From the IMG/VR virus record IMGVR_UViG_3300049733_000155, positions 1 through 41,201 of that record: a DNA stretch of 41,201 bases; one strand, 5' to 3'. Numbering within the stretch: position 1 is the first letter of the stretch; each line of letters opens with the position of its first letter. Under the pieces are notes generated by a model. The model saw nothing but the letters and a program-made list of their open reading frames with translations, ran no database searches and was not told the DNA's origin. Below, piece after piece: positions 18,669 to 21,169 of the stretch. A program made the position numbers and the translations under genes. Source of the stretch: a virus.

Positions 18669-18874
18669 GCGACATGCTGAGCCCGCTGCGCCGCGCGGAA
18701 CGGATCCTCGGCAACCGCCTGATCGTGCTCGAGCGGCAGTTGCCGGGCAACTACGACAACTCGCCCCTCTGGGCCGAGTACCTGCAGACGCTCCACGAGT
18801 TGCGCGAGCTCCACAAGACGCTGCGCCCGCCGCCCTATCCGCCTGATGACATCGAGCGGCGGCGCCGCGAGTGA
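18665..18874 (+). CDS. Small helical protein
   Basis: 69 residues, 'MSDMLSPLRRAERILGNRL' then a long amphipathic helix 'LQTLHELRELHKTLRPPPYPPDDIERRRRE'. Start and stop both overlap neighbours. Function unknown. Confidence 0.55.
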   Translation: MSDMLSPLRRAERILGNRLIVLERQLPGNYDNSPLWAEYLQTLHELRELHKTLRPPPYPPDDIERRRRE

Positions 18875-19269
18875 GCCTGAGCTTGCGCCCCTGCACGATC
18901 ACGGAGGCGCGCCGCTTTATCGGACGCCATCACCGGCATAGCGCCGCGCCGAGTAGCGGGCTCTTCGCCGTCGCCGTCGGGAATCCCGAGCTCTGCGGCG
19001 TGGCCTTGGTCGGGCGCCCCGTCGCCCGCCGCCTCGATGACGGCTGGACGGCCGAGATCACGCGGGTCTGTACGCTCGGCGAGCGGAATGCCTGCTCGAT
19101 GCTCTATGGCGCCTGCGTCCGGGCGGCGAAGGCTCTCGGCTACCGGCGGATCATCACGTACACGCTCGCCAGCGAATCCGGGGCCTCGCTCCGGGCGACC
19201 GGCGCGACGAGCGAGCCCGCGACCAGCGGACCAGGAAATAATCTAGGCGGGGCTAACGCCGGGCCGTAA
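18871..19269 (+). CDS. GNAT-like (XF1762 family) acetyltransferase, altered C-terminus
   Basis: 132 residues from a GTG. The order 'ITEARRFIGRHHRHSAAP', 'FAVAVGNPELCGVALVGRPVARRLDDGWTAEITRVCTLGERNACSMLYGACVRAAKALGYRRIITYTLASESGASLRA' is that of the phage-borne XF1762 family. Normally a further segment with conserved Gly-Trp and 'GGGSW'-like residues follows; here the sequence becomes 'TGATSEPATSGPGNNLGGANAGP' and stops inside leader A. The last strand is therefore lost or shifted out of frame and the enzyme may be inactive. Target of this family is not known to me. Confidence 0.75.
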   Translation: MSLSLRPCTITEARRFIGRHHRHSAAPSSGLFAVAVGNPELCGVALVGRPVARRLDDGWTAEITRVCTLGERNACSMLYGACVRAAKALGYRRIITYTLASESGASLRATGATSEPATSGPGNNLGGANAGP

Positions 19270-19317
19270 CCCGACGTCGCCCCTAACCACCGAACCCCCT
19301 TGATTGGAGGGAGCGCA
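19247..19317 (+). promoter_or_regulatory. Structured leader, copy A
   Basis: Three predicted hairpins: outer stem GGGGC/GCCCC (19249-19253 with 19279-19283), inner stem CGGG/CCCG (19260-19263 with 19270-19273) closing the loop CCGTAA, and CCCT/AGGG (19297-19300 with 19308-19311) with a 7-base loop; the last holds the Shine-Dalgarno GGAGGG. The ATG at 19318 follows. Copy B has the same architecture with compensating changes. The loop TAA is also the stop codon of the upstream acetyltransferase gene. Confidence 0.6.
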
Positions 19318-19611
19318 ATGGCTGACCGGATAGTACCCGAACCCCCCACCGTCGACGAACTTCTGAAGTCCAGCGGACTCATGCGCTACGTCCTGATGCG
19401 CCTCATTCGGGCGCGTGCGCGCACGGCCCGCCTCCAGGCGACCGACGAACAAACCAAGGCCGAGTTCGCGCGGATCGAGAAGCTGGCCGACGACGGTCTG
19501 AGCCAGCCGCTGGATGGCCGGGCGCGCATTCTCTACGAGGCGCTGGAGACCGAGATGGCGCGCGTCACCGGCGTGCTCGGGCGGATGGATGGGGCGCACG
19601 CGATGATCTGA
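19318..19611 (+). CDS. Small helical protein behind leader A
   Basis: 97 residues from MADRIVPEPPTVDELLKS, with a strong GGAGGG ribosome site. Predicted to be nearly all helical: 'LMRYVLMRLIRARARTARLQ', 'TKAEFARIEKLADDGLSQP' and 'RILYEALETEMARVTGVLGRM'. No family recognised. It lies between two copies of the same structured leader and shares no homology with the other gene so controlled. Confidence 0.65.
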   Translation: MADRIVPEPPTVDELLKSSGLMRYVLMRLIRARARTARLQATDEQTKAEFARIEKLADDGLSQPLDGRARILYEALETEMARVTGVLGRMDGAHAMI

Positions 19612-19618
19612 GGCCGAG

Positions 19619-19690
19619 GCGGACTGACGCCGGCGCGCTAACGCCGACGCCAGTCCTGACCACCTACAACCCTGACTAGGAGGGTTTTCG
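19619..19690 (+). promoter_or_regulatory. Structured leader, copy B
   Basis: Outer stem GGACTG/CAGTCC (19621-19626 with 19651-19656), inner stem CGGCG/CGCCG (19631-19635 with 19642-19646) closing the loop CGCTAA, internal loop ACGC on both sides, linker TGACCACC, then AACCCT/AGGGTT (19668-19673 with 19681-19686) with a 7-base loop, containing the Shine-Dalgarno AGGAGGG. ATG at 19691. The architecture, loop TAA and ACCACC linker match copy A, while the stems differ by paired changes. Confidence 0.65.
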
Positions 19691-21169
19691 ATGGCTGAGT
19701 TCAGTCTAAGTCGGAGGGCGATGTTGGCGGGCACAATGGCGAGCGGGGTGATCGCGGCGGTGCCGTGGGAGGTGCGCTCGGCGCCCACGGGCCGGGCGCT
19801 CAAGATCCGGACGCGCCGGATGCGGCGCATGGCCGGCGTGCAGCGGGTCGTCGCGCCGTGGCTCAACGCCGGCTTTGACGCCTTGGTCGCGCGCGTCGGC
19901 GAGCGGGCCGTGCTCGCGCGTTTCTTCCGGGGCATGTACGAGGTCGAGGCGACGCCGACGACGCTCGATCGGCTCGCCGAGTTGGTCGCGCAACGCGGCT
20001 GGCCAGCGGCGCTCCACCGCATGACGCTCCTCGGCGGCACCAGGACCGGGCGGCCGGTGCGCAAGCTCTCGGAGCGCCATCGCGTCGTGGCCCTGACGCG
20101 CCTGGCGCAGATCGAGCGGCTCTATCGCTCCGTCGCGAACCGCAATCCGCACGCCGGGGAAGTGGCGGGGGCGTTGGAGCACATCACCGACTACTCGCGG
20201 CCGATCATCGAGCAGCGCACGCCCGGCGCCGCGCTTCGGCTCGGCTGGACGACGGCGGCGGCGCAGGAAGCCACCTTTGTGCTCCCTGAGATCGTCGTGA
20301 CCGAATCGGGCGAGGCCACGGCGGACTTCGGTCCCGCCGGCGGCAGCGGGGTCGGCTATTCGCAATTCGGGAACTCGATCTACCAGGCGGTGCTCCGCCA
20401 GCGCGTGATTGACGCGCTCGTCGCGCAGCAGCAGCAGCAGCAGGCCGACGCGGAAGCGGCCCGCATCGTCGCGCAGGCCGAGGCGGAATATCAGGCGCGC
20501 TTAACCACCTTCCTGCAGTCCCCCGAAATGGCGCTCTTCGGCGGCGAGGATGCCCGCGAAGTAGTCGATCAGCTCGCGCGGCAACAGCTCCAGGAAGCGC
20601 AGATTCTCGCCGTGCTGACGACGATCGCGGCGGCGGCGCGGCTGGGCGAAATCCTCGCCGACGGGCGCATCATCCCCACGGCCGCCGCGCTCTTCAAAGA
20701 GGCCGCGATCGCGTGGCGGGCCGGGCAGCTCGCCATCGCCGTGGAGGCGATCGGCGGCGCGGTCGTCGTGACGTGGACTGGCGTGTGGATCGTGGCGGCC
20801 CTGGCCGCGCTGACGATCATCGTCACGATGTACATGACGGATGCCCAGGTCACGGCGACGTCGATCGACATCGTGCCCAAGGCCCCGCCGGACGCGGTCA
20901 TGGACGTCGATCTCTCGATCATCCCCAACAGCGACATGCCGGAATCGCTGGTGGAGCCCGAGGTGCCCGACATCGAGGTGGGCGCGCAGGGTAACGTCGG
21001 CGAGATCGCAGGCCCCGAGCCGGGGCCGACGCCGACGCCGACGCTCGAGGAGCAATTCCAATCAGGCTACGACCCGACCGTCGATCCCAACGCGAGCTAC
21101 GAGACGTGGTTGGCTTGGTACTCCTGGAGTTACGGCGGTTTCAACGCTGGGAGCATGAGCGGAGGGTAA
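19691..21169 (+). CDS. Large exported membrane protein, unknown (Tat-like signal)
   Basis: 492 residues. The N-terminus 'MAEFSLSRRAMLAGTMAS' followed by a hydrophobic stretch and 'VPWEVRSA' is a twin-arginine-type signal peptide. Then a helical domain rich in Arg/Ala (to ~170), a beta segment 'ATFVLPEIVVTESGEATADFGPAGG', a Gln run with coiled coil 'VAQQQQQQADAEAARIVAQAEAEYQARL', a strong transmembrane segment around 355-380 ('AVVVTWTGVWIVAALAALTIIVTMYM') and an acidic/Pro-rich tail ending in aromatic residues and a Gly/Ser stretch. No lysozyme, amidase or other catalytic motif seen. Two small membrane protein genes follow immediately. Confidence 0.75.
   Translation: MAEFSLSRRAMLAGTMASGVIAAVPWEVRSAPTGRALKIRTRRMRRMAGVQRVVAPWLNAGFDALVARVGERAVLARFFRGMYEVEATPTTLDRLAELVAQRGWPAALHRMTLLGGTRTGRPVRKLSERHRVVALTRLAQIERLYRSVANRNPHAGEVAGALEHITDYSRPIIEQRTPGAALRLGWTTAAAQEATFVLPEIVVTESGEATADFGPAGGSGVGYSQFGNSIYQAVLRQRVIDALVAQQQQQQADAEAARIVAQAEAEYQARLTTFLQSPEMALFGGEDAREVVDQLARQQLQEAQILAVLTTIAAAARLGEILADGRIIPTAAALFKEAAIAWRAGQLAIAVEAIGGAVVVTWTGVWIVAALAALTIIVTMYMTDAQVTATSIDIVPKAPPDAVMDVDLSIIPNSDMPESLVEPEVPDIEVGAQGNVGEIAGPEPGPTPTPTLEEQFQSGYDPTVDPNASYETWLAWYSWSYGGFNAGSMSGG

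Follow-up and report, generated by a model that had tools for sequence, protein, structure and literature searches.

The window, a stretch of 41,201 nucleotides of viral DNA, very probably carries two cis-antisense RNAs of the SymR/RepX type on its minus strand (at about 19323-19240 and 19696-19613), each masking the ribosome-binding site (RBS) of the gene that it overlaps. In sequence and layout the element matches SymR and RepX; expression of the two RNAs in the phage, their exact ends and the repression of the two overlapped genes are predictions from sequence. Both genes lie on the plus strand. Gene A (19318-19611) encodes a protein of 97 aa and gene B (19691-21169) a protein of 492 aa with the N-terminus MAEFSLSRRAML and hydrophobic segments; no family was found for either. 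The gene A protein as query yielded a single match that we judged to be due to chance, and the gene B protein yielded no match.

An initial annotation had described leaders with the same order of elements ahead of gene A (19247-19317) and gene B (19619-19690), and inspection of the sequence found both where it had placed them. Read on the plus strand, copy A consists of a hairpin (19249-19283), TAACCACC (19284-19291), the Shine-Dalgarno (SD) sequence GGAGGG (19306-19311) and ATGGCTGA from 19318; in copy B the hairpin lies at 19621-19656, TGACCACC at 19657-19664, the SD at 19679-19684 and ATGGCTGA begins at 19691. On this reading the SD is inside a hairpin in both copies. The claim that the stems of A and B differ yet remain paired also agrees with the sequence. 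Both copies overlap the RBS and start codon of an open reading frame, and the targets would be 19284-19320 on mRNA A (plus strand, from the TAACCACC linker through the SD to the ATG at 19318) and 19657-19693 on mRNA B (plus strand, from the TGACCACC linker to the ATG at 19691). The pattern ACCACC..GGAGG..ATGGCT occurs at two places in the window but in no shuffle out of 100, and a covariance model built without the window (R1, below) had significant matches at just these two places. The pair is thus not a product of chance. Just upstream, at 18871-19269, is a gene for a Mom-like DNA modification protein (phrog_1384, E 1e-29). Its stop codon is inside hairpin A, so that antisense RNA A would overlap the 3' end of this gene, too.

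Scanning viral and bacterial contigs with the pattern gave hundreds of stretches, and well over a hundred of them had the same layout. False positives in coding regions from the first scans (e.g. L023 and L054) were removed by eye and with the models. In a second scan we used only the hairpin arms and ATGGCT, which removed the linker bias of the query. About half of the distinct matches of this linker-free scan were members (59 R1 matches in 100 loci), and T(A/G)ACC appeared unprompted 3' of the hairpin, identifying it as the conserved core; the invariance of CCACC in the linker was partly a product of the first search pattern and was discarded.

For covariance model R1 we used 28 diverse relatives and left out the window, SymR and RepX. 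In the window, the model detected copy B (42.9 bits, E 7e-8) and copy A (36.2 bits, E 2e-6), on the strand complementary to the antisense RNAs, and nothing else that was significant. R1 also found the repA leader of RSF1010, which is the RepX (R1162) antisense locus (38.2 bits, E 1e-7), and the annotated symR of E. coli K-12 at its exact coordinates and, as expected, on the complementary strand (31.4 bits, E 4e-6). Model R2 likewise matched symR at the annotated coordinates, and in the window it matched copy A at 19241-19323 (47.8 bits) and copy B at 19613-19696 (53.0 bits), both on the minus strand. In the 28-sequence alignment, 13 of 14 pairs varied on both sides, and there were 123 double-changed cells compared with 39 in shuffles (0 of 500 shuffles reached the observed count). 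The covariation signal was lost when the partner columns were slid by one to three, and the G-C closing pair and the C just 5' of the hairpin were invariant. Covariation in the relatives thus bears out that a conserved structured RNA lies at the translation start, as the initial annotation had proposed. Four other contigs (L341, L455, L547 and L171) likewise carry two elements with differing stems.

A functional RNA on the plus strand should tolerate G.U but not A.C. In the outer stem of 145 non-redundant relatives, we counted 410 Watson-Crick cells, 31 A.C and no G.U (p ~1e-9); in relatives chosen on the inner stem only, the outer stem had 61 A.C and five G.U. Since an A.C on the plus strand is a G.U on the minus strand, these counts place the structured RNA on the minus strand. 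Folding gave the same answer. The minus strand had the stabler fold in 143 of the 145 relatives (mean -39.1 versus -29.2 kcal/mol for the plus strand), and for the RBS part alone (stem-loop SL1) the minus strand was stabler in 115 relatives and the plus strand in 28, with control segments even. In the window, copy A folds at -48.9 kcal/mol on the minus strand (z -4.3) versus -33.7 kcal/mol on the plus strand (z -0.7), and copy B at -50.6 (z -4.9) versus -35.0 kcal/mol (z -1.9); for the second stem-loop (SL2) of copy B alone, the values are -31.0 (z -7.2) and -20.7 kcal/mol (z -4.3). The minus strand of both copies thus folded very well, whereas the plus strand folded little better than shuffles. 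The ACGC internal loop that had been described on the plus strand closes through minus-strand G.U pairs, fully in copy B and with a small 1x2 internal loop kept in copy A. Moreover, the consensus fold of the antisense alignment A4 adds a stem GCCAU:GUGGU, antisense of the start codon to the linker, which needs two G.U pairs and hence exists on the minus strand only. The antisense alignment folds at -30.4 kcal/mol versus -22.9 for the sense alignment, which is supporting evidence only because their memberships differ. We conclude that the minus strand is the structured one, in the relatives as well as in the window. Counting A.C against G.U can serve generally to tell on which strand the RNA of a conserved hairpin lies.

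These results bear on the original reading of the element as a translational leader on the plus strand, to which a protein or ligand binds. Its stems do pair on the plus strand as well, and the SD within a hairpin would suit such a role, but the mismatches are of the wrong kind for that strand, the plus-strand fold is the weaker one in all but two relatives, the GCCAU:GUGGU stem depends on G.U pairs found only on the minus strand, and SymR and RepX, which were retrieved by the same model, are minus-strand RNAs. With mismatches, folding energies and promoter signals (below) all pointing to the minus strand, we regard a plus-strand leader as highly improbable, and the claim that it is bound by a protein or ligand as wrong or unsupported.

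On the minus strand, antisense RNA A would be approximately 80 nt long (19240-19323), with its 5' end at 19323 and its 3' end near 19240, as placed by the R2 and R1 matches and by analogy with SymR. Its SL1 (19285-19323), in which AGCCAUUG pairs with CGGUGGUU, would hold the SD complement in the loop region, according to the minus-strand fold and the GCCAU:GUGGU stem of A4. Its SL2 (19249-19283) is predicted from the fold and from the flank invariance in relatives to be a GC-rich hairpin with a G-C closing pair, an A before it and a G after it. Antisense RNA B, also of about 80 nt (minus strand, 19612-19696), would extend from 19696 to near 19613 by its R2 and R1 matches. Its SL1 (19658-19696) again presents the SD complement in the loop region of the minus-strand fold, and its SL2 (19621-19656) is an unbroken helix of 16 bp, in which G.U pairs take the place of the internal loops of the plus strand.

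On the minus strand, the relatives have in common a promoter lying within codons 5-14, the linker GGU(U/C)A, and a start placed at base 6 of ATGGCT. Bases 13-19 after the ATG read AATnTTA, a minus-strand -10 box, and bases 36-41 read NNNCAA, a minus-strand -35 box, with a spacer of 16; some relatives read TATGAT-N7-AGCCAT. In 68% of relatives, a leave-one-out promoter score was above the 95th percentile of the in-frame controls. With the matrix from the relatives, the percentile among controls was 98.6 for copy A and 77 for copy B; a strict consensus scan found no promoter or terminator at either window copy. Antisense RNA A has a putative -10 TACTAT (minus strand, 19330-19335) within codons 5-6 of gene A, identified with this matrix, and a poor -35 region (minus strand, 19353-19358). 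For antisense RNA B there is an uncertain, weak putative -10 TAGACT (minus strand, 19703-19708) and no -35. At the other end of the element, A accounts for 47-60% at positions -3 to -9 ahead of the hairpin in relatives, corresponding to a U-rich tail on the minus strand. The 3' tails of the window copies, GCCUAGAUU and GCCUCGGCC, are not U-rich by sequence, and neither is the RSF1010 tail GCUCUGAG (in A4). We rejected a sense-strand promoter with the A-rich bases before the hairpin as its -10, as it has no -35 and the minus strand reads these bases as the U-rich tail.

The weak -35 in both copies and the weak -10 of B could be explained if one or both window copies (most likely copy B) were relics that kept the fold while the antisense promoter decayed. 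The window folds, however, are stronger than those of most relatives, and over a relative of gene B with only 28% protein identity (below) the element has been kept, with changes that preserve pairing. We therefore consider relics unlikely.

Two RNAs of this type are experimentally known. SymR, a very stable RNA of 77 nt, acts as a repressor of symE translation independently of Hfq and RNase III, and its promoter is within the symE frame (PMC1891008). Like the window copies, SymR (RF01809, the antitoxin of symE in E. coli K-12) has two hairpins in the same order and a comparable linker, GAUUA. Its 5' end is base 6 of the symE frame, and the antisense starts in the window were placed at base 6 by analogy, from the SymR alignment. 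It differs in its target, which is the toxin SymE, whereas the targets in the window are proteins without a family. RepX is 75 nt long and covers the RBS and start of repA in RSF1010; FinO binds it, and it controls the copy number of the plasmid (PMC8136791). RepX (R1162, RF00043, of the IncQ plasmid RSF1010) and the window copies are both antisense to an RBS and start codon and both have two FinP-like hairpins, and its linker GGUUA is shared with the GGU(U/C)A of the relatives. Unlike the elements in the window, it governs plasmid replication, is present as a single copy and has different stems. FinP (RF00107, antisense to traJ of the F plasmid) is alike in length, in its two hairpins and as a FinO ligand with an A.G mismatch (PMC12001967), but its linker is GACA, not GGUUA (PMC8136791). 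R2 gave no match to FinP, which we therefore did not accept as a matched member.

In the window, no Rfam family reached its cutoff. In a permissive search, RF00043 alone touched the window; it spanned each copy from end to end, with 30.7 and 23.1 bits against a cutoff of 55, and this sub-threshold lead proved correct. RF01809 (cutoff 61 bits) had no match in the window even when searched to E = 5. Of ten member loci compared with Rfam, only the E. coli locus contained RF01809 and only the RSF1010 locus RF00043, and both families were missing from twelve further member loci. PtaRNA1 (RF01811), also an antisense RNA of about this size, lies next to a toxin-like gene. It showed no link to the elements here: in 10 genomes, the majority rich in SymR/RepX-type RNAs, nothing scored above its cutoff. 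Integron attC sites were dismissed (no GTTRRRY site), and the idea that CTAACCACC is a complement of a tRNA D-arm was supported by no test.

A further shared feature concerns the base of SL2. In a set picked by folding only, the base 5' of the hairpin was C in 136 of 146 sequences and the closing pair was G-C in 140 of 146. A C placed 5' of a G-C-closed hairpin amounts to an A.G mismatch under the closing pair on the minus strand, and both window copies have it by sequence. In both FinP and RepX the 3' hairpin is closed by a G-C pair with an A.G mismatch directly beneath it, a feature that separates FinO from ProQ ligands (PMC12001967). As the invariant bases here give exactly this mismatch, it is reasonable to predict a FinO-type protein as a likely partner of these RNAs, from the shared mismatch only. 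The window itself contains no ProQ/FinO gene (no PF04352 match).

We propose that each antisense RNA would start inside the first codons of its plus-strand gene and fold into SL1, complementary to the RBS, the GGU(U/C)A linker and the GC-rich 3' hairpin SL2. It would then pair with the 5' end of the overlapped mRNA and keep ribosomes off, so that translation is blocked. The cognate duplexes were predicted at approximately -197 and -199 kcal/mol and the crossed duplexes at approximately -100 and -103 kcal/mol, implying that the main target of each RNA should be its own gene. The suggestion of the initial annotation that one signal coordinates genes A and B does not fit these energies, as each RNA matches its own message far better. 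The same values argue against minus-strand RNAs that are real but mainly trans-acting, on other mRNAs or on each other's target, and that couple A and B or host genes. Such action would be in keeping with the 5' AGCCAU, linker and part of SL1 that A and B have in common, with some relatives preceding open reading frames too short to matter, and with the 78 matches in one genome (below). However, with cognate duplexes approximately 95 kcal/mol better than crossed ones, and with the SD, the start codon and an open plus-strand frame all preserved in relatives, we consider predominantly trans action very unlikely.

That the same element is reused ahead of unrelated genes, as had been noted, is upheld. 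Less certain is the accompanying view that only the control element was duplicated. L056 encodes a diverged relative of gene B (28% protein identity over 233 residues) and keeps the element, which is closer to copy B than to copy A and in which the changes preserve pairing. As the L056 element is nearer to B, the two elements may each have moved together with the gene they precede, which makes duplication of the control element alone doubtful and suggests that gene and lock travel together.

The genes downstream of the relatives are diverse. Among 93 downstream proteins of at least 100 aa, HNH_3 was matched by 21, HNH by nine, HNH_5 by seven and SymE by one (one protein may match several); NUMOD4, Endonuclease_7 and other nuclease domains were also represented. 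Gene B (19691-19740) and several unrelated downstream genes (L056, L486, L211 and L124) begin with RR-x-x-L followed by a hydrophobic run, resembling a twin-arginine signal. The genome of Thalassomonas sp. RHCl1 alone had approximately 78 matches (including L585, L596, L606 and L296), and the copies examined precede frames of 89-98 aa that are SymE-like by eye and have differing flanks. At E <= 1e-3 or 1e-4, matches were found in the genomes of 10 of 74 other Gammaproteobacteria, five of 57 other Alphaproteobacteria and none of 61 Bacilli. Outside the Proteobacteria, a member-like element lies before a frame starting GTGGCTGA in Streptomyces sp. NBC_01549 (L614). Matches in a cyanobacterial genome (G110) were rejected, since they look like an unrelated hairpin repeat with no start-codon context. 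In Dyella mobilis (L235, L257, L581 and L608) many copies lie before a 39-aa frame, MATPDDTSRA..., which is perhaps no gene, and the RNA might act alone or in trans in this species. As some relatives stand before very short open reading frames, the adjacent gene need not be the target of every member.

We think it somewhat more probable than otherwise that SymR and RepX are two known representatives of a single large family of FinO-type antisense RNAs, most of which is unannotated. This family would form a portable lock on genes that are costly if untimely, chiefly free-standing phage homing endonucleases, SymE-like proteins, and replication and accessory phage genes, moving with the gene among phages, plasmids and chromosomes of Proteobacteria. 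SymR and R1162 were named together in no paper of the open-access literature searched, and in the same literature we found nothing on the SymR/RepX-type family in connection with antisense RNAs of homing or HNH endonucleases. Given this scope, novelty is provisional. The kind of RNA is already known; what appears to be new is how widely the family is spread, that it is used over HNH nucleases and further genes of phages, and that SymR is linked to RepX.

Taken together, what appeared to be an RNA leader is most likely two unrecorded antisense RNA genes, tied to two experimentally known systems, and two separately described Rfam families would thereby be joined. What makes the finding interesting is how widespread the family is and its testable link to FinO-type recognition and to the control of phage endonuclease genes. 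The relatives offer many naturally varied ligands for testing how FinO-type proteins recognize RNA, and the arrangement suggests a way in which homing endonucleases and other accessory genes of phages are kept silent.
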